In this document: positions 48,393 through 59,264 of the stretch, one piece after another | Position numbering within the stretch: position 1 is the first letter of the stretch | How the letters are laid out: each line of letters begins with the position of its first letter | Assembly (NCBI GenBank): GCA_026393535.1 | Contig: JAPKZY010000049.1 | Location: 1-64,000 of the forward strand | Length of the DNA stretch: 64,000 nt | DNA from: Actinomycetota bacterium | Lineage (GTDB): Bacteria; Actinomycetota; Acidimicrobiia; Acidimicrobiales; Ilumatobacteraceae | Direction of reading: 5' to 3' | The notes under the pieces: model-generated | Told to the model about the DNA's origin: nothing | The model's input: the letters and a program-made list of their open reading frames with translations, nothing else | Database searches by the model: none | Made by a program: the position numbers and the translations under genes

Positions 48393-49465
48393 AGAGCGCG
48401 AACTTTTAAGTGTGCGTTACGACGCGCCATTGGTTGCGTAAACAATGTTGAAGCAGGAGATCCGCCGCTAATTGCATCTGCAGCAAGAATGATGGCAGCT
48501 GCGGTGTACGCACTGTATTCATCGGCAGGAAAACGAACAATCATTTTTTCTGGTTCTGCTGGATACACAATGCCGGTCCAATATGCACCGTCTTCACGGC
48601 GGTGAGGCATGGTCCACAAAATGAGTTCACGAGCGATGTCGCGATCGCCAGCTGCGCAATGGGCAATCGCGCATTCACTTGTTTCTGCTGCAGTGACCCA
48701 TTGTTCGTCATCGACACAACGCACGCCTCGGTCATCGAGAACGAAACGGTCCCATCCTTCGGCGAGTCGCGCTTTTGCGTGAGCTCCGGTCATAGCGCCG
48801 GTGAGTACGGGGTAGTACCAGTCCATTGCCCATCGAGCCTTTGGCTCGAATGCATCAAGATTGGAAGTGATGAGTACATCAATTGCATCAGCCGCAGCGG
48901 TCCATTCTGGCTGGGAGTCACCAAGAAGGTCTCCCAGTGCAGCGCCGCAATGAAGTGCGTGACGAATACTCGAACAGCCGGTCAGTAGTGCATAGTCCCA
49001 TGGTTGTGAATCAACTTCTCTGGCCCAAACGATAGATCCATCTTCACGACGCATTGACAAAACCCATTGAAGGGCTTTTCGTACAGTTGGCCACAAGGCA
49101 GATACCGCGGCAAGATCGCGGGTGCATAACCAATGGGTCCACACGCCAACTGCAATGTATGCATTGACATTTGTATCGAGTTTGGCGTCTTCGATTGTTG
49201 TATCTGGCATGTAGTAGTTAAACCATGAACCATCTTCATGTTGAATGTCGGCAAGCCATTTGTATGCAGAAAGAGCAGCTTCGTCACGGCCCATGATGTT
49301 GAGAGCCATTGCTGTTTCAACGTGATTCCACGGGTCGCAATGGCCATTTGGATACCACGGAATCATTCCGTTTGGTAATTGCAATGCCTGAATTGAATCT
49401 GCAGTGCGCGCAAGGTCAGCGGTGGTAAGAATTCCTGGAAGGTGAGGCATGGAACGTGTGGTCAT
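48389..49465 (-). CDS. Alpha/alpha-barrel (prenyltransferase-like) protein
   Basis: This 358-residue protein has repeated helix pairs with Gly/Trp-rich turns such as NGMIPWYPNGHCDPWNHVE, HEDGSWFNYY and REDGSIVWARE, as in terpenoid cyclase, prenyltransferase or glycoside hydrolase toroids. Many actinobacterial proteins of this kind are labelled prenyltransferase without proof. It overlaps the upstream methyltransferase by 4 nt, so it belongs to the GT4-methyltransferase unit and more likely acts on a glycan. Confidence 0.65.
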   Translation of the reverse strand: MTTRSMPHLPGILTTADLARTADSIQALQLPNGMIPWYPNGHCDPWNHVETAMALNIMGRDEAALSAYKWLADIQHEDGSWFNYYMPDTTIEDAKLDTNVNAYIAVGVWTHWLCTRDLAAVSALWPTVRKALQWVLSMRREDGSIVWAREVDSQPWDYALLTGCSSIRHALHCGAALGDLLGDSQPEWTAAADAIDVLITSNLDAFEPKARWAMDWYYPVLTGAMTGAHAKARLAEGWDRFVLDDRGVRCVDDEQWVTAAETSECAIAHCAAGDRDIARELILWTMPHRREDGAYWTGIVYPAEPEKMIVRFPADEYSAYTAAAIILAADAISGGSPASTLFTQPMARRNAHLKVRAL

Positions 49466-50199
49466 ACAGATGCTCCGACGGTAAGTGGTTTGCGTGAGTA
49501 GACAACAAAGCTTTTACCCATAAGTGGGCTCAGTGCGCGCTCGGCAACTTGCATTGAGCGCGGCTGGGTCATGATGTCCCATTCAAGGAATTCGCGGTAC
49601 TTTTTCACTAATGAATGGTCGTTATTGCGAGGGCCAACTGCACATTTCAACCACCAATAAGGGGAGTGTAAAGCGTGAGCGTGATGGCTATCTGTAACTT
49701 CAAGTCCGGCAGAACGAAGTTTTGCCTTCAGTTCTGTAGCTGAGTAGATACGAACGTGGCCACCAACACTTTTTGGTGCGTGGTATTCATCAGACAACAT
49801 CCAGTTGATTTTTTCTGGCCACCACGATGGAACGGTGACACCAAGTGAACCACCTGGTTTTAAGACGCGATGTAGTTCTGAAATGACACTGACATCATCT
49901 TGAATATGTTCGAGAACTTCTGATGTGACAACACAATCAAAAGTGTTGTCTTCGAAGGGGAGCTTGGTGGCATCCCCGCGGAGTACTCCGCCGTATACCT
50001 TTTCCGTAATTTGTTTGGCTTCCAACATCGCGCCGAAGGTATTACGTGTGGTGACTACCTCTTCTGCTGCATAATCAAGGGCGAACACAGTTGCGCCTTG
50101 GCGAGCTGCTTCAAATGCGTGACGACCAAATCCGGCTCCTGCATCAAGAAACTTGTCTCCGGGACGAAGACCCAGACGATTAAAACGAATTGTCAACAT
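49462..50199 (-). CDS. Class I SAM-dependent methyltransferase
   Basis: This 245-residue protein shows motif I DAGAGFGRHAFEAA, the acidic strand FALDYA, and FDCVVTSEVLEHIQDDV, typical of small-molecule or quinone/glycan methyltransferases. It lies 1 bp downstream of the glycosyltransferase gene and overlaps the barrel gene, giving a tight three-gene unit. The target is unknown. Confidence 0.88.
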   Translation of the reverse strand: MLTIRFNRLGLRPGDKFLDAGAGFGRHAFEAARQGATVFALDYAAEEVVTTRNTFGAMLEAKQITEKVYGGVLRGDATKLPFEDNTFDCVVTSEVLEHIQDDVSVISELHRVLKPGGSLGVTVPSWWPEKINWMLSDEYHAPKSVGGHVRIYSATELKAKLRSAGLEVTDSHHAHALHSPYWWLKCAVGPRNNDHSLVKKYREFLEWDIMTQPRSMQVAERALSPLMGKSFVVYSRKPLTVGASV

Positions 50200-50200
50200 A

Positions 50201-51487
50201 TCAGCGACGCTTTTCTAGTTTGGTGCGATTATGGGGCATGTCGAGCACTTCGCGATATTGCTCAACGGTGAGTTCTGCACATTGTTTCCACGTCCAGCGT
50301 GATACGACTCGTTGACGACCTGCTTCACCAATTCGGGCGCGAAGTTCTGCACTGTCAAGACCAGTAGCAATCACTGCTGCCAGTGCTTCGGCATTTGCAG
50401 CTGGGCATTGCAACACGGTCTCATTGTGTGTGCCCGTTACTTCGGGCAAGGCGCCACCGTCTGTTGCAACAAGGCAGATACCGGTGCTCATGGCTTCAAT
50501 TGCAGGAAGACTAAATCCTTCATACAAGCTAGGTACAACGGCAAGTTCAGCTTCTGCATACAGCTCAACGATGCGCTCATCAGTAACCCCGGACACGAAG
50601 TCAATATGTGGGCGTAATCCGAGCGAATCAATGAGGTCCATGCTGTGCCCGGGACGAGGCTTACCGATAATGGTGAGGCGGATATCGCGATCTTTGCGCA
50701 AAAGGGCCATTGCTTCAAGTAGATATGACAAACCCTTCAATGCAACGTCAGCTGATGCTGTAGTAATTAATCGACCAGGTTCGCGTGCGATATGAGGCAG
50801 TGGTTTGAAAAGGTCAGGATCAACTCCGACGGGCACAAGACGCATACGGTCGCGGGATACGCCCATATCTTTGTTGATGTCAGTGATGCTGTTCTCACTA
50901 ACAACAACAATACGAGGCATTTTGCTTGCAACTTTGCCTTGCATGTCTACGAATGAATACCAACGGCCAACAGAGCGGCGCTTCCAGCGGTTCGGTGCAT
51001 GACTCATTTCCAATTCACGATCTTTCGTGATGGGGTGGTGCAACGTGACGATTGTCGGAATGATCTTTTCAATTTTCAAGATGTCCCAACCAAGGCACTG
51101 GTTGTCATGGACAAGATCGAAGTCATTCACCCGGGGAGTCAGTGTGCGAAGTGCACGCTTTGAAAATGCAAGTGGTTCAGAAAACTGACCTGTCATGTAC
51201 CGCGCAGTCTCCACAACGTCTGGCCATGTTTTGATCTCCCAGTATGCGGGCATTCGCCCTGGGTATGCATCGTTGAAAATATCAAGGCTCGGTAGTTTGT
51301 GCATCGCGATGCGATCATCAAGAACTGGGTACGGCTGTCCGCCGAAAACTTCAACAGTGTGTCCGAGATCTGCGAGTGCTTTAGTGAGGTGACGTGTGTA
51401 TACGCCTTGTCCGCCAACATGTGGTTTACCGCGATACGTAAGGTATGCAACACGCAACGGGCCATTGGGGTCGTAGGTGCCTGACAT
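50201..51487 (-). CDS. GT4-family glycosyltransferase
   Basis: This 428-residue GT-B enzyme starts with VAYLTYRGKPHVGGQGVYTRHL (glycine-rich acceptor loop) and has the retaining GT4 signature PSLYEGFSLPAIEAM with the E-x7-E motif near residue 330. It leads a unit with two further genes. The set recalls mycobacterial polymethylated-polysaccharide loci, which pair a GT4 with methyltransferases; this is only an analogy. It follows lnt after 12 bp. Confidence 0.88.
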   Translation of the reverse strand: MSGTYDPNGPLRVAYLTYRGKPHVGGQGVYTRHLTKALADLGHTVEVFGGQPYPVLDDRIAMHKLPSLDIFNDAYPGRMPAYWEIKTWPDVVETARYMTGQFSEPLAFSKRALRTLTPRVNDFDLVHDNQCLGWDILKIEKIIPTIVTLHHPITKDRELEMSHAPNRWKRRSVGRWYSFVDMQGKVASKMPRIVVVSENSITDINKDMGVSRDRMRLVPVGVDPDLFKPLPHIAREPGRLITTASADVALKGLSYLLEAMALLRKDRDIRLTIIGKPRPGHSMDLIDSLGLRPHIDFVSGVTDERIVELYAEAELAVVPSLYEGFSLPAIEAMSTGICLVATDGGALPEVTGTHNETVLQCPAANAEALAAVIATGLDSAELRARIGEAGRQRVVSRWTWKQCAELTVEQYREVLDMPHNRTKLEKRR

Positions 51488-51499
51488 AGGCAGTAGAGG

Positions 51500-52939
51500 C
51501 TAACTGGCACCAATCCGAAAGGCTCGGGCACGGCGTCGGGCTAGCCAGGCAAATGCAATCAATAAAGCCCAGATATAGACCGCATTCCCCATGCGTGAAT
51601 ACACGGTACGGCCCGATCGAAGCTGAATAGAGCGTTCAACCACATGTTGTTCGCTAATTGATGTGCGGTCGTGAACAACACCAGAAGAATCAATAAAGGC
51701 GCTAAAGCCGGTGGGGGAAATTTGTGCTACATCACGGCCTTGTTCTCGAGCCCGCAATTGAGATGCCGCTATTTGTTGTGTCTGCAGAATTGTCCATGTG
51801 TAACTAGAACCATTAGTGGGATTAATGATGAACGTTGCTCCATCAGCAATTCCTTCATTGACGCGTCCACCAAAAAATATTTCCCACGAAATTGCAACAC
51901 TCGCGCGAGTGTCTGCAACATCAAGCCAGCCGCGCGAATCACCAGCTCGTGCATCGCGCGGTACTAAGTCGGTAGGCGCACCAAGTGCTTTCAACAATGG
52001 TCGTAACGGCATGTATTCACCAAACGGGACTCGCCGTACTTTGTCGTAACGGCCACTTACTGACCCATCGATGTTTACGACAACTTGCGCATTCGTAAAT
52101 TGACGCGGACCAGCATCTTCGGTGATACCCACAACGAACGGCACATTCAGGCGCTTTGCTTCTTGTGCAATTTCTGTGTACTCGGGACTATCAAAAAAGA
52201 GTCCGTGGTTTGTAATGCTGATGGCATTCTCTGGCCAGATCACGGCATCACGTTCTTGGTTGGGTTGGAGAGTTTTCGTTGCAGCCATGTGAACATCAAA
52301 CACAACACGCGGGTTCGTATCAACTGCGTGAGTTCCTTGTTCTCCACCACCTTGAATAATGGAAAGATTCAAGTTTCGTCCTGTGGAGTGGGTGCTGTTC
52401 CAAGTATTTCCCAGAAGAACCAAAACACCAACGATACAAATTGCACGAAACTTTCGGTGAGTTAATGCGAGATACAACGTTGCGGTTGAGATACCAATGA
52501 CACCCATCAACGGGGCAAGATCAGCAAGAGGACCTGAAACTTGTCCGATAGCGAGAGTGGCTAACGGAACGCCACCGAATGGAAATGACAACCGCACTAC
52601 TTCTGCAAGCGAATGACAAATGATTAACGCTGATCTATGGGAATTATCGTTTGTCGACAGTTTGGATGCGATGTAACTGGCGATGCCATGCATCACGCAG
52701 AAAATCAGGATTGCAACTAGGTAGCCAGGCGCTGTGAGAAACCACATCCACGCCATAGACGGCAAGAACCATGCGGCTGCAAAAAGAGAACCAGTCGAGA
52801 AAGATTTTTCTTTCCGCCGTACCGCCACCGAGCCATACATCGCAATTCCCACAAAGCCAAGCGGCCACCAACCCCAAGGAGGCATTGATGCTGCAACCAA
52901 AAGACCGGCGAATACAGGAAGAAACGAACGCCGTCTCAT
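51500..52939 (-). CDS. lnt: Apolipoprotein N-acyltransferase homologue, catalytic Cys replaced by Ser
   Basis: The ATG at 52939 gives 479 residues; further upstream codons are open but run into hemY. An N-terminal multi-helix membrane region is followed by a nitrilase domain. The catalytic Glu is in VIWPENAIS and the Lys in YDKVRRVPFGEY. The position of the catalytic Cys (ICYE in E. coli) reads ISWE, with a TCG Ser codon at 51887-51889. Lnt would add the third acyl chain to lipoproteins; with this change the activity is in doubt. Confidence 0.85.
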   Translation of the reverse strand: MRRRSFLPVFAGLLVAASMPPWGWWPLGFVGIAMYGSVAVRRKEKSFSTGSLFAAAWFLPSMAWMWFLTAPGYLVAILIFCVMHGIASYIASKLSTNDNSHRSALIICHSLAEVVRLSFPFGGVPLATLAIGQVSGPLADLAPLMGVIGISTATLYLALTHRKFRAICIVGVLVLLGNTWNSTHSTGRNLNLSIIQGGGEQGTHAVDTNPRVVFDVHMAATKTLQPNQERDAVIWPENAISITNHGLFFDSPEYTEIAQEAKRLNVPFVVGITEDAGPRQFTNAQVVVNIDGSVSGRYDKVRRVPFGEYMPLRPLLKALGAPTDLVPRDARAGDSRGWLDVADTRASVAISWEIFFGGRVNEGIADGATFIINPTNGSSYTWTILQTQQIAASQLRAREQGRDVAQISPTGFSAFIDSSGVVHDRTSISEQHVVERSIQLRSGRTVYSRMGNAVYIWALLIAFAWLARRRARAFRIGAS

Positions 52940-52944
52940 GTCAT

Positions 52945-54339
52945 TTACGAATGAAGTGTGGCAAGGTGAGTAAGTGTTGCCTCGGCTGCAGTGCGTGCTT
53001 GTTGTACACACGCGGGAATTCCGATACCTCTGTAACTTGCACCAGCAAAGACTATTCCAGGAGCAGCAGAACCAAGCGAGTGTTCAAGTTCAGCAAGCCG
53101 TGCGAAATGATGTGGCCTGTATTGCGGAAAGGATTCTGCCCAGCGGCTGACGCGAATTTCTGATGGCGTCATATCAACACCGAGATGGAGTTTCATATCC
53201 GCAAGCGCAAGATTGATGAGCTTGTCATTATCGAAATGCATCACTTCAAGTCCGTCGCGGCCCAATGACACACGAAGAATCATGGAACCGTCGTCGGGGC
53301 GCCAGTGTTCCCACTTGTTTGAACCAAATGATGCAGCTGACACCCAGCGTTGATCAGGTTTTGGAACTAAGTACCCACTGCCCTTGAGGCGGGCTGGCCA
53401 TTGTGATGCAGGGATTGCCATGGTGATCAATACCACTGAAGCATGAGACCATTGGCCAAGAAGGTCGGCGGCACGAGCATCAAGCGGGCGAACGAAGTTT
53501 GAACTCGGTTTTGCTGGCGATGCAACAACGATTGCATCAGCACGGTGTTGGCCTCGCGAAGTTGACACGGTGTATCCGGTGGTTTCTTTTTCGATTGCCG
53601 ACACGCTTTCACCGGTAAGTATGCGACCGCCAAGCGCTGTTACTCGTTGTGTCAATAATTCGATGAGCGCACCAATTCCACGGATGGGAGTTGCAAAAAT
53701 TGGACCAGCAGGATTTTTTGTTGCGGTGGCTCGTGCTTTGCCGGCCGCTAACAACATGCTGCGGCTTGCAGTGAGTGAAGCAATCTGTGGAACTGCAGCC
53801 ATTGAGAAGTTGTCAGAATCTGTTGCGTAAATGCTTCCGATGAGTGGGTCCACAAGACGTTCTTGAATTTGATTACCAAATCGGCTGCGCACGTATTCAC
53901 CAATGGAGTCGGTGTCTGTAGTGGCGGGCAGCAGCGGCTCTATAGCTGCTCGTAGTTTGCCAAGAGGAGAAATAAGGCCTGACGTTGCGAATGCACGAAT
54001 TTTTGCAGGGACACCAAGCATGAGATCGCCGGGAATGTTGTGCATGCCATTGTGCCAAATAGAAGCATGTGCATCAGTAGGTGATGTCATTGATGCACCG
54101 AGTCCTAATTCAGATGCAAGTTGCGTAGCCCATGGGACACGTGCAAGAAATGCGTCGGGACCCTCATCGATCGCAGGTAATCCAGCAAATGGTGTTGTGC
54201 GAATTTGACCACCAACAGTTGAGCCTGCTTCAAGCACGGTCACGTTGACTGGTTCAGACGAATTAGTAAGGAGGGTGAGCGCGCTAGTTAGTCCTGCTAC
54301 GCCTGCACCGATGATGACAACTTGACGGGGTTCGCTCAT
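52945..54339 (-). CDS. hemY: Coproporphyrinogen/protoporphyrinogen oxidase
   Basis: This 464-residue FAD enzyme begins with VVIIGAGVAGLTSALTLL and has GEYV and C-terminal GIVFAGASYRGIGIPACV segments of the HemY family. In Gram-positive bacteria HemY usually oxidises coproporphyrinogen III in the coproporphyrin-dependent branch. It follows hemH with a 4-nt overlap, giving hemE-hemH-hemY in pathway-related order. Confidence 0.93.
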   Translation of the reverse strand: MSEPRQVVIIGAGVAGLTSALTLLTNSSEPVNVTVLEAGSTVGGQIRTTPFAGLPAIDEGPDAFLARVPWATQLASELGLGASMTSPTDAHASIWHNGMHNIPGDLMLGVPAKIRAFATSGLISPLGKLRAAIEPLLPATTDTDSIGEYVRSRFGNQIQERLVDPLIGSIYATDSDNFSMAAVPQIASLTASRSMLLAAGKARATATKNPAGPIFATPIRGIGALIELLTQRVTALGGRILTGESVSAIEKETTGYTVSTSRGQHRADAIVVASPAKPSSNFVRPLDARAADLLGQWSHASVVLITMAIPASQWPARLKGSGYLVPKPDQRWVSAASFGSNKWEHWRPDDGSMILRVSLGRDGLEVMHFDNDKLINLALADMKLHLGVDMTPSEIRVSRWAESFPQYRPHHFARLAELEHSLGSAAPGIVFAGASYRGIGIPACVQQARTAAEATLTHLATLHS

Positions 54340-55265
54340 GCAGAGATAAGTCTACGAGCCAGCGCAGCCATGACCAATGAGTCACTGTTGACACACGTTG
54401 TGCGCGCAAACGCCATGCCGTATGACGCTGCTCGTTGAGACGCCTCAAGATCTAAGTCGTAGAGAACTTCGAGATGATCAGCTACGAAACCACATGCACA
54501 CACAACAACGCCATCAACTGATTCGTCGGTGTCACGCATTGTTGCCATTTGATCAATAACAGCAAGGATGTCTGGGCCAATCCATGGCTCCGGAGTGCGT
54601 CCTGCAGATTGCCACGCGATGGACCATTGCGACCAACGCGTTAGCGATGCCTTACTTGCAACGAGTTCTGCAGTGGCACGAAGTTCTTCTGGGTACGGAT
54701 CACCAGCGTCGATGATTCGTTGCGGCAACGAGTGTGCTGTAAACAACACCTTCGTGCGCTCTGGCATGTTTGACAACTTTGTGCGCAGATCAGCAGCTAA
54801 GAAATCAATGAATGCATCTTCACGTGCCCATGTTTCAACGGCGCGCACTTCAATATTGTGAGGTGCTGCAGCAGCCCGTACCCGGTCTGTGTATTGACCA
54901 ATGGAATATGTTGAATAGTGCGGAGCGAGCACAAGGCAAATGATGCGTGTGAAACCGAGACCCGCAACTTCAGCGACAGATTCCTCAATAAATGGTGTGG
55001 CATGTTTAAGACCAAGAAATACTTGGTAGTGACCAGGGTTAATGAGGTCGAGTTGTTCTTGGAGTGAGTCTCGCTGCGCTTCTGTGAGTTGCTTTAACGG
55101 AGACAAACCACCAATGGCTTCATATCGCTTGATGAGATCGTTCAGTTGTTCGTCAGTAGGTGCACGTCCACGACGAATGTCTGTGTAATACGGCAAAATT
55201 TCTTCTTTGGTGCGTGGCGTGCCATACGCCATCAACATCACTGCAGTACGAGAGGTGTTACTCAT
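54336..55265 (-). CDS. hemH: Ferrochelatase
   Basis: This 309-residue enzyme inserts iron into (copro)porphyrin. It has VMLMAYGTPRTKEEILPYY at the N-terminus, the metal-binding His in VLFTAHSLPQR and the acidic DHLEVLYDLD region. In this gene order the substrate is probably coproporphyrin III, but hemQ is not in the window. It overlaps hemE and hemY by 4 nt on either side. Confidence 0.94.
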   Translation of the reverse strand: MSNTSRTAVMLMAYGTPRTKEEILPYYTDIRRGRAPTDEQLNDLIKRYEAIGGLSPLKQLTEAQRDSLQEQLDLINPGHYQVFLGLKHATPFIEESVAEVAGLGFTRIICLVLAPHYSTYSIGQYTDRVRAAAAPHNIEVRAVETWAREDAFIDFLAADLRTKLSNMPERTKVLFTAHSLPQRIIDAGDPYPEELRATAELVASKASLTRWSQWSIAWQSAGRTPEPWIGPDILAVIDQMATMRDTDESVDGVVVCACGFVADHLEVLYDLDLEASQRAASYGMAFARTTCVNSDSLVMAALARRLISA

Positions 55266-56299
55266 TTTGTTGTCTTTTCGTGAACGTAGGCCACAATGTC
55301 GGTGAGAACGCTGGGGTCTGTGTCGGGTTGCACCCCGTGGCCGAGGTTGAAGATGTGACCAGCGTGTCCTGCATTGTCTGCAAGCACTGTTTCTGTACCA
55401 GAAAGTGCAATGGCAGAACCTGCTAAAACAAGAGCCGGGTCAAGATTTCCTTGCACAATTGTGTCAGCACCAAGGCGAGTACGCGCATTTCGAATTGTTG
55501 TCCTCCAGTCGAGACCAATGATTGCGTTACCGACTGAGTTCATTGATTCCAATAAGTGATCGCAACCGATTCCGTAGTGAATGCCAGCAACACCAGGATG
55601 TCGTTCAGCCAACTGTGAGAACACTGCAGTTGTATGTGGCTTTACATATGTGTCGTAGTCGGAACGAGATAGTGCACCAGCCCATGAATCAAATAGTTGA
55701 AATGCTTCAGCACCAGCAGAAATCTGTGCAGAGATGAATTCAACAGAATGTTGAGCAAGATGTTCCATGACGTCATGCCATAACACTTCGTCTTCACGCA
55801 TTAACCGTTTTGTGTTCTCATAAGTACGGCTTGGTCGTCCTTCAATGAGGTAACTAGCAACAGTGAACGGTGCTCCTGCAAATGCCAGAAGTGGCACTTT
55901 CAGTTCCTTTACTAATGCGAGCACTGTGTCAGTGACGTACTCAATGTCTTCGTGATGCAGTGGGCGAAGGCGTGCAAGGTCATTACGGGAACGAAGAGGG
56001 GACGGGGCTACTGGCCCAGTTCCGGGTGCAACGTCGATACCGAAACCAACAGCATGAGCTGGTACAACAATGTCGGAATAGAGAACTGCTGCATCAACGT
56101 TGTGACGGCGAACGGGTTGCAATGTGAACTCCGCTGCAAGTTCTGGCTTCTTGATTGCGTCAAGGATGCTTCCTTCACCACGCAACGCTTTGTATTCAGG
56201 AAGGCTGCGTCCTGCTTGGCGCATGAACCAGACAGGGGTGTGGATGGCCTGTTGGCCTCGGGCGGCGGCAAGAAAAGGGTCGTTGGGGAGGCTGGTCAT
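55262..56299 (-). CDS. hemE: Uroporphyrinogen decarboxylase
   Basis: This 345-residue cytoplasmic enzyme removes four carboxyls from uroporphyrinogen III. The N-terminal PVWFMRQAGRSLPEY carries the substrate Arg pair, followed by YSDIVVPAHAVG with the catalytic Asp, FAGAPFTVASYLIEG, and the C-terminal FNLGHGVQPDTDP. It is the first gene of the hem unit that runs through hemH, hemY and lnt. Confidence 0.95.
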   Translation of the reverse strand: MTSLPNDPFLAAARGQQAIHTPVWFMRQAGRSLPEYKALRGEGSILDAIKKPELAAEFTLQPVRRHNVDAAVLYSDIVVPAHAVGFGIDVAPGTGPVAPSPLRSRNDLARLRPLHHEDIEYVTDTVLALVKELKVPLLAFAGAPFTVASYLIEGRPSRTYENTKRLMREDEVLWHDVMEHLAQHSVEFISAQISAGAEAFQLFDSWAGALSRSDYDTYVKPHTTAVFSQLAERHPGVAGIHYGIGCDHLLESMNSVGNAIIGLDWRTTIRNARTRLGADTIVQGNLDPALVLAGSAIALSGTETVLADNAGHAGHIFNLGHGVQPDTDPSVLTDIVAYVHEKTTK

Positions 56300-57666: not shown

Positions 57667-58425
57667 ATGACCGCACCAACAATTCCAGGAGCAGAGGCCT
57701 ACTCTCACATTGGCAATGGCGATGTCGGGGTTCTCGTCCTCCACGGTTTCACTGGCAATCCTGGCTCAATGCGGGCACTTGCTGAGGCATGTGCAACTGC
57801 TGGTTTTCATGTCGAACTTCCACAACTTGCCGGTCACGGCACTGCAATCGAAGACATGATCCCCACTCGATGGGCTGATTGGAGCGGAGATGCCGAGAAG
57901 GCGTATCAGGTTCTTTCGAAGCGCGCGAAAAAAATTGTTGTGATGGGTTTGTCGATGGGTGGCGCTTTGACATTGTGGATGGCCGCTCAACATCCGGAAG
58001 CGTGCGGCATTGTTTGTGTCAACCCAGCGACGCAACCGCAAACATCTGACGTGATCGACATGTTGCAAGGAATGATCGACGCAGGAACCGTGATGGTGGA
58101 AGCAATTGGTTCTGACATTGCAGACCCAAGCGCGCACGAGACTGCGTATCCTGGCACTCCGCTTGCTGCAATGAAGTCATTTTTGTCTGAAGGTCTAGCA
58201 CCGCTTGCGCCACGTTATCCATCAATCAAAATGCCGATGTTGTTGTACACCTCAACGCAAGACCATGTTGTGCAACCAAGCGATAGTGATGCAGTAGCAG
58301 CAACGTATGGCGGCCCTGTAGAGCGCATCATTCTTGAACGCAGTTATCACGTTGCAACGCAGGACTACGACAAAGACATCATCTTCACGGGTGCTGTTGC
58401 ATTCGTACACCGCGTCACCGCATGA
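57667..58425 (+). CDS. Alpha/beta hydrolase, carboxylesterase Est30-like
   Basis: This 252-residue serine hydrolase has the oxyanion segment VLHGFTGNPGSMR, the nucleophile elbow GLSMGGAL (about residue 99), the acid in STQDHVVQP and the catalytic His in ERSYHVATQD. It resembles Est30 and monoacylglycerol lipases. AAAGGA precedes the ATG. It overlaps lgt by 4 nt. Confidence 0.88.
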   Translation: MTAPTIPGAEAYSHIGNGDVGVLVLHGFTGNPGSMRALAEACATAGFHVELPQLAGHGTAIEDMIPTRWADWSGDAEKAYQVLSKRAKKIVVMGLSMGGALTLWMAAQHPEACGIVCVNPATQPQTSDVIDMLQGMIDAGTVMVEAIGSDIADPSAHETAYPGTPLAAMKSFLSEGLAPLAPRYPSIKMPMLLYTSTQDHVVQPSDSDAVAATYGGPVERIILERSYHVATQDYDKDIIFTGAVAFVHRVTA

Positions 58426-59264
58426 CAATTGAATTCCTTCTTGGAGTAATTCCGAGTCCATCATCCGGTTCGATTCATCTTGGGCCATTGCGCCTCAATG
58501 CGTATGGGTTGATGATTGCACTTGGCGTCATTGTTGCTGTACGTATTGCTGGGCGTCGCGCAGAAAACAAGGGCGTCGGCACAACGGAAGATATTTCTTC
58601 CATTGCAATGTGGGCCGTTCCTGCTGGAGTTATTGGCGGTCGGGCGTATCACGTACTGACCGATTATCAGCGATTCCAAGGCCAGTGGTTTGATGCCATA
58701 AAGATTTGGCAAGGCGGCCTGGGTATATGGGGTGGCGTCACGGTTGGCGTTGCCGTTGGTTGGTGGTGTGCTCGTCGTCGTGGACTTGATGCGTGGTGGA
58801 TTATTTCATGCGCTGCACCTGCCATTGCAATTGCGCAGGCAATTGGTCGGTGGGGCAATTGGTTTAACCAAGAACTATTTGGTCGGCCGACAACCCTTCC
58901 GTGGGCATTGAAGGTGTCTGGAGATATCGCAGTGAAAGCTGGGTACACCGCGGGTACAACATTCCACCCGACCTTTCTCTATGAGTCGGTGGGGTGCATC
59001 GTGCTGGCGTGGCTCCTTATTCGTCTTGAGGGTCGCATCGCCCCGGCCCGTGGCCGATTGTTTGCGTGGTATGTGGCCGGATACACCGTTCTGCGGTTCG
59101 GAACAGAGAGCCTTCGTATTGATGCCAGCCACAATGTTGGCGGCATGCGATTGAACCAGTGGGTGGCTATCTCAGTATTCGCAGTGGCGGTCCTGTTTTT
59201 GGCTGTTGATCGTCTGCGTTCTCGGAAGACTCCTGAAGCGTCTACGGTCTTAGACCATGAGTGA
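58422..59264 (+). CDS. lgt: Prolipoprotein diacylglyceryl transferase
   Basis: This 280-residue polytopic membrane protein transfers diacylglycerol to the lipobox Cys. It has LNAYGLMIALGVIVAVRIAG, the GRWGNWFNQELFG signature and FLYESVGCIVL. The GGLGIWGG segment replaces the GGMSFHGG of E. coli, as is usual in actinobacteria. It starts the lipoprotein path that lnt (about 6 kb away) would finish. Its end overlaps the next gene by 8 nt. Confidence 0.94.
   Translation: MTIEFLLGVIPSPSSGSIHLGPLRLNAYGLMIALGVIVAVRIAGRRAENKGVGTTEDISSIAMWAVPAGVIGGRAYHVLTDYQRFQGQWFDAIKIWQGGLGIWGGVTVGVAVGWWCARRRGLDAWWIISCAAPAIAIAQAIGRWGNWFNQELFGRPTTLPWALKVSGDIAVKAGYTAGTTFHPTFLYESVGCIVLAWLLIRLEGRIAPARGRLFAWYVAGYTVLRFGTESLRIDASHNVGGMRLNQWVAISVFAVAVLFLAVDRLRSRKTPEASTVLDHE

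Follow-up and report, generated by a model that had tools for sequence, protein, structure and literature searches.

To our knowledge, the Cys residue of the nitrilase triad is generally regarded as indispensable. The lipoprotein N-acyltransferase of E. coli, hereafter abbreviated as Lnt, is described as working by a ping-pong reaction that proceeds via a thioester (PMC6971011, PMC8048626). Its His425 is described as adjoining the nucleophile Cys387 and as able to help remove its proton, Ser411 as hydrogen-bonded to Cys387 (PMC5500888) and the residues from D413 to F416 as part of the lining of the active-site cavity (PMC5500890). The C387S mutant of the same enzyme, used as a negative control for Lnt, is reported still to carry out the first step and to form an oxygen-ester acyl intermediate, the following transfer being the step that fails (PMC6828757); elsewhere the mutant is described as having 'low activity' (PMC10313180). 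The initial annotation of the locus considered here had stated that Cys-to-Ser inactivates E. coli Lnt, a premise that is to be softened in view of these two reports.

A natural Cys-to-Ser homologue of Lnt has previously been noted, as a probably inactive second copy, by Brulle and colleagues in BCG_2279c, a second mycobacterial Lnt homologue. In the case of the four lipoproteins tested, this protein did not take over from the Cys Lnt, and its authors favour a contributive role while leaving room for Lnt activity under other conditions (PMC3850990). Among the matches listed by literature searches there was no paper on the Lnt of Acidimicrobiia or on a natural nitrilase with a Ser nucleophile, and none describing a lineage whose sole Lnt carries Ser. 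We describe here an Lnt homologue, the only one found in its genome, in which Ser at the nucleophile position together with the retained catalytic core suggests a natural switch in the chemistry of a well-known enzyme.

An Lnt Homologue with Serine at the Nucleophile Position

The window, namely the whole stretch of 64,000 nucleotides that we have analyzed, derives from a member of the Ilumatobacteraceae (Acidimicrobiales, Actinomycetota) and carries the lnt homologue and its upstream neighbors as follows.

51500..52939, minus strand: lnt homologue of 479 aa, its LNT_N membrane domain being joined to a CN_hydrolase domain (open reading frame, domain scans and fold)
52945..54339, minus strand: hemG/hemY for protoporphyrinogen oxidase, with 5 bases between it and the downstream lnt (family scan)
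54336..55265, minus strand: hemH, ferrochelatase (family scan)
55262..56299, minus strand: hemE-like open reading frame (named from sequence; homologues in 50 of 79 relatives' loci)

The ATG of lnt lies 5 bases past the stop codon of hemG. The previous description of the gene as following hemEHY holds for hemH and hemG (of HemY type), which are recognized by family scan, whereas hemE has been named from the sequence of its reading frame only.

The protein scores 182.5 bits with TIGR00546, against a curated cut-off of 132.9, and contains both PF20154 (LNT_N, 64.5 bits) and PF00795 (CN_hydrolase, 53.9 bits) above their cut-offs. Its AlphaFold2 model, built from 38 aligned sequences that all carry Ser, has a mean pLDDT of 93.1 and a pTM of 0.93, and matches 20 Lnt entries of E. 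coli and P. aeruginosa along almost its entire length (Z 38.0-40.3), the best match being E. coli Lnt (Z 40.3, rmsd 2.5, 462 residues); with solved nitrilases and amidases the Z values are about 24-26, as for a fold of the nitrilase superfamily. The gene, which had been reported to appear intact, indeed has an open frame of full length and a dN/dS ratio of 0.07-0.13 in comparison with the six closest of the relatives compared, more distant ones being too diverged at silent sites, and is under purifying selection. The window protein is thus a full-length Lnt homologue by descent, domains and fold, but lacks the catalytic Cys; TIGR00546 accepts it as Lnt regardless of the nucleophile.

Alignment to E. 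coli Lnt places the residues of the active site as listed below, all on the minus strand.

51887..51889, minus strand: Ser351 (TCG), aligned with the nucleophile Cys387
52229..52231, minus strand: Glu237 (in WPENAIS), aligned with the catalytic base E267
52040..52042, minus strand: Lys300 (in YDKVRR), aligned with K335
52016..52018, minus strand: Glu308, aligned with E343, the 'fourth catalytic residue' (PMC5500890)
51881..51883, minus strand: Glu353, aligned with E389
51815..51817, minus strand: Thr375, aligned with Ser411 (Thr in every row of at least 400 aa in the window lineage, 256 of 256)
51809..51811, minus strand: Gly377, aligned with D413
51773..51775, minus strand: Gln389, aligned with His425
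51704..51706, minus strand: Phe412, aligned with I448

In phmmer searches of PDB sequences, the segment AISWEIFF of the window protein pairs, with no gap near the site, with the E. coli Lnt segment AICYEIIL (6nwr) and also with AISYEIIL in 5vrh, the entry for the mutant C387S. The claims that the ICYE motif of E. coli reads ISWE here, with TCG at the catalytic Cys codon, and that the Glu and Lys of the triad are present are therefore borne out, the window protein having Glu-Lys-Ser in place of the Glu-Lys-Cys triad of nitrilases and retaining the equivalents of all four other residues, Glu267, Lys335, Glu343 and Glu389. Reading the whole protein reveals no compensating Cys in the nitrilase domain, since its only Cys residues (81, 108 and 168) all lie ahead of this domain and none is near enough for another alignment to place it at the nucleophile. 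Trp237 of E. coli Lnt is not matched either, its position corresponding to Ala in one alignment and to a gap in another. This residue does not define the family in this phylum, because the loop aligns poorly and Trp occurs at position 237 in just 1 of 91 Cys rows (in one alignment).

Distribution and Conservation of the Serine Form

In a sample of the family, 111 of 121 genomes have an Lnt above the cut-off, with two copies each in G026 and G054. Ser is present in the main Lnt of all 111, in the additional copy of either of these two genomes and also in two below-cut-off fragments at contig ends (G032 and G120); the reading of the site covers these 111 genomes and two fragments, the remaining eight genomes having weaker matches only. 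The alignment of relatives proposed in the initial annotation has thus extended the observation beyond what was first noted. A read error at the codon, the other caveat raised there, is excluded by relatives with 87-93% identity (L095-L099) that carry the same Ser. Sequencing error, misalignment or a decaying gene, for which we found no support, can be dismissed with practical certainty in view of the unanimity of the family, the open frame, the dN/dS values and the gapless site.

Across 409 aligned rows, the column of the nucleophile contains Ser in 318 and Cys in 91, and no other letter. By source, the rows comprise the window protein (1 Ser), its family (115 Ser), the order (91 Ser, spread over 37 families, and 2 Cys), the named genome contigs (79 Ser, a set biased toward this residue because one search pattern contained it), E. 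coli (1 Cys) and a non-random selection, made of the best 30 loci per search and of hand-chosen stretches, from the class (28 Ser and 42 Cys) and the phylum (4 Ser and 46 Cys). These rows are not equivalent to distinct genomes, a few of which are counted twice, and the named contigs may duplicate other sets; the count excludes two plain nitrilases of the genome of the window (L002 and L003), a further nitrilase that scores below the cut-off (L422), and L001 and L234, which duplicate the window gene. All main copies read in family and order have Ser but one, L286.

The nearest named relatives of the window protein are records of Ilumatobacteraceae and Acidimicrobiales. Six records titled as a 'Bifidobacterium breve' metagenome-assembled genome (L095, L098, L126, L127, L133 and L138) carry Lnt proteins of this lineage with up to 91% identity, as do two records titled 'Acidobacteria' (L111 and L165), and these titles are probably mislabelled. 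In a sample of the order, the window protein is matched in 213 of 248 genomes; the absence of any match in the other 35 indicates that the step is not indispensable there. Within one genus of the order (family f4, genus g32), the near-complete genomes G167, G212 and G271 are without a TIGR00546 match and others have weak ones only, so that members of this order can lose the step.

The residues around the switched nucleophile are strongly conserved. Among Ser rows that have a letter at the respective position, E267 is kept in 313 of 314 (the exception being Gln in L004, a second copy), K335 and E343 in 316 of 316 each and E389 in 318 of 318; Thr or Ser occupies position 411 in 316 of 317. Within the lineage of the window protein, Ser is kept in each of the 256 rows of at least 400 aa, in which 21 columns are at least 99.5% conserved, including Ser351, Glu237, Lys300, Glu308, Glu353 and Thr375; the lowest identity among 3000 sampled pairs of the lineage is 27%, and its Ser codons belong to both the TCN and the AGY blocks.

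This conservation bears on the question of whether these proteins are enzymes. A pseudoenzyme that binds lipid or lipoprotein, acting as a scaffold or chaperone, would agree with the abolished or strongly lowered activity that Cys-to-Ser reportedly causes in E. coli (PMC6828757, PMC10313180), with the contributive role ascribed to BCG_2279c (PMC3850990) and with the additional E267Q change of the second copy L004. However, a scaffold should need none of the equivalents of Glu237, Lys300, Glu308 and Ser351 that are invariant in all the long rows, and neither Ala nor Gly nor Thr ever occupies the nucleophile site in the 409 rows; we consider this possibility quite improbable. Of the three options initially put forward for the protein, a Ser nucleophile is favoured by the presence of Ser together with the four retained residues, while a scaffold is disfavoured because the triad shows no drift in main copies; a new acceptor or activity may still apply.

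Evolution of the Switch and Second-Shell Residues

Parsimony on a tree of 69 rows requires six changes of the nucleophile, gains and losses pooled. The grouping of all Ser rows in one clade does not survive the AU test (p 1.2e-9), which was run on a quick tree of 69 representatives hand-picked after the first trees and likewise pools gains and reversions; hence, the nucleophile has changed more than once. The same test does not reject one clade uniting the order (group A) with other families of the class and L309/L313 (group B), with a p value of 0.40 that was obtained with the Cys rows L049 and L286 included, and we do not therefore claim separate switches in A and B, which may share one. FastTree places group A beside the Cys Lnt proteins of families f69, f64, f73 and f76, and the quick tree of IQ-TREE places it differently.

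Cys occurs in only two rows of the order, L264 and L286. The former is a second copy in G537, the other copy of which (L420) has Ser, and sits elsewhere in the tree; the latter is nested in the Ser lineage and is the sole row with K335E and E389D, E267 and E343 being kept. The Cys rows of family f32 fall inside the second Ser group, with the same residues at positions 413 and 425 and the same Cys pair, so that reversion would be one reading of their origin. Some second copies with Ser (L294 and L295) are without the TN motif and located in another part of the tree. Another second copy in a member of the family (L004, on contig G026:C122) combines E267Q with Ser at the nucleophile and also has a separate position in the tree, and thus looks like a true pseudoenzyme.

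The Ser-Lnt proteins of group B (for instance L194, L200, L207, L216 and L226) possess an invariant Cys pair at the equivalents of residues 201 and 205 of the window protein. The pair is present in all 27 rows of at least 400 aa, right after QGxxP, in the loop that holds W237 in E. coli; the Cys rows L049 and L054 share it, and L309 and L313 have a similar pair with different spacing. It may form a disulfide near the mouth of the active site or have a role in acyl transfer. Such a pair, together with the retained Lys and Glu residues, would be compatible with a reaction in which Ser351 is not acylated, the acyl chain passing directly from phospholipid to amine with Glu237 as base or via another nucleophilic residue. 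Yet the nitrilase domain of the window protein is without Cys and such a reaction leaves the invariance of Ser unexplained, which makes it very unlikely in our view.

Several of the positions at which Ser and Cys rows differ most clearly (390, 391, 410, 413, 425 and 448) are near the nucleophile in sequence. His425 is present in 72 of 91 Cys rows versus none of the 318 Ser rows, and Asn or Asp at 413 in 76 of 91 versus 2 of 318; position 448 is Ile or Val in 67 of the 91 Cys rows and Phe or Tyr in 274 of the 318 Ser rows. Gln425 is already found in 13 Cys rows and thus the change from His is by itself no marker of Ser; the loss of His425 may have predated the switch in the window lineage. The correlation of these residues with the nucleophile is confounded by descent, because four supported independent pairs are too few as proof, and from these four a link of residue 413 with the nucleophile beyond descent does not emerge.

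Genomic Context and Partners of the Pathway

A single Lnt above the cut-off is present in the genome of the window, which is 94% complete. The initial annotation had suggested searching for a second Lnt with Cys, and the TIGR00546 search returned none in this 94%-complete genome. Its other two matches are below the cut-off and correspond to plain nitrilase homologues, with Cys at the usual motif as judged by motif reading. The gene for the first step of the pathway lies in the window:

58422..59264, plus strand: lgt for prolipoprotein diacylglyceryl transferase (search match)

It is 5.5 kb from lnt, and lspA is on another contig. In a sample of 21 genomes, 19 have an lgt match and 6 of these have it within about 6 kb of lnt (the genome of the window, G001, G002, G003, G005 and G009). 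Inspection of five substrate-binding proteins of the same genome found a lipoprotein signal in two, by pattern in L361 and by eye in L362 (VGVAC-GG), and not in the other three; with the lipobox of these two proteins, likely substrates for the pathway are present. Within the window, a strict scan for lipoboxes yielded a single match, which by eye looks ferredoxin-like and not like a lipoprotein.

In the loci of 79 relatives, the length of the flanks limiting the counts, lnt is accompanied by a hemG homologue in 64, a downstream GT4 glycosyltransferase in 68, a methyltransferase-like gene in 60 and lgt in 9. The GT4 gene and the methyltransferase-like gene, the latter named from its sequence, lie at 49462-51487 in the window and accompany lnt in the loci L095-L173; their vicinity makes a link of lnt with glycosylation of the envelope or of lipoproteins possible.

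Ser351 could be an active nucleophile that serves an acceptor other than the apolipoprotein amine. The protein would then be an esterase of phospholipids, or else an O-acyltransferase whose target is some other molecule of the envelope, such as one produced through the GT4 and methyltransferase-like genes. The frequency of these neighbors, within the limits of the flanks, and the report that C387S keeps step 1 while losing step 2 (PMC6828757) both point in this direction. On the other side, gene neighborhood is by itself weak evidence, the full architecture of Lnt is retained with its membrane domain, and lgt and lspA are present, lgt being nearby in several genomes; we thus regard a different acceptor as unlikely.

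A Possible Oxyester Mechanism and Its Significance

We favour, with somewhat better than even confidence, the view that the window protein is the Lnt of this organism, an active enzyme that uses Ser351 as its nucleophile, passes through an oxyester intermediate and is adapted for step two. In such a reaction, Glu237 would deprotonate Ser351, which would attack an acyl chain held in ester linkage by a phospholipid of the membrane, while Lys300, held by Glu308, and the backbone of the elbow would provide the oxyanion hole. An oxygen-ester acyl-enzyme would replace the usual thioester, and the amine of the diacylglyceryl-Cys of the apolipoprotein would then accept the acyl chain. Since C387S is reported to manage step 1 but not the transfer, natural Ser-Lnt proteins would need to solve step 2, and the changed second shell (413, 425, 448 and 390/391) might render the oxyester reactive enough for it. 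From the sequences and the cited studies we infer the acylation of Ser351, the apolipoprotein as acceptor and the enabling of step 2 by the second shell.

An active Ser-Lnt has its basis in the Ser itself, the retained residues and their strict conservation, purifying selection, the lack of a second Lnt in the genome searched, the pathway partners, the proteins with lipobox, the Lnt fold and the oxygen-ester intermediate reported for C387S. Against it stand the inactivity or low activity of C387S, the failure of BCG_2279c to substitute for the Cys Lnt with the four lipoproteins tested, the less canonical copies L004 and L294/L295, the occurrence of Gln425 in Cys rows too, the small number of independent pairs and the genomes of the order without any match. 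We give about even chances to the wider proposal that nearly the whole order, together with one or more other groups of the class, has moved from thioester to oxyester Lnt, having active enzymes of the nitrilase superfamily with a Ser nucleophile that would be the sole lipoprotein N-acyltransferase and in which second-shell compensation would enable the step failed by C387S.

A natural Ser version with an intact core, extending over an order, is an evolutionary experiment in nucleophile swapping and suggests which residues might restore the transfer. It makes testable whether an oxyester acyl-enzyme can acylate an amine in this fold, and whether these bacteria have triacylated lipoproteins; Lnt inhibitors directed at thiols would probably miss these enzymes.

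Comparison with Known Systems

With E. coli Lnt (TIGR00546; PF20154 and PF00795) the window protein shares the whole fold, E267, K335, E343, E389 and a Ser or Thr at position 411, but has Cys387, Tyr388, His425 and Asp413 replaced by Ser, Trp, Gln and Gly, respectively, with no Trp aligned at 237. The C387S form of the E. coli enzyme (PDB 5vrh and 8b0m) has the same fold with Ser at the nucleophile position, and an oxygen-ester acyl intermediate is reported for it (PMC6828757); it is, however, a laboratory mutant, inactive or of low activity overall, that retains His425 and Asp413, whereas in natural Ser rows the former is absent and the latter nearly always so. BCG_2279c and its counterpart Rv2262c-Rv2261c in slow-growing mycobacteria share the natural Cys-to-Ser change at the same position but this protein accompanies a functional Cys Lnt as an additional copy and is split in M. 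tuberculosis (PMC3850990), whereas the Ser of the window protein is in the sole Lnt found in its genome.
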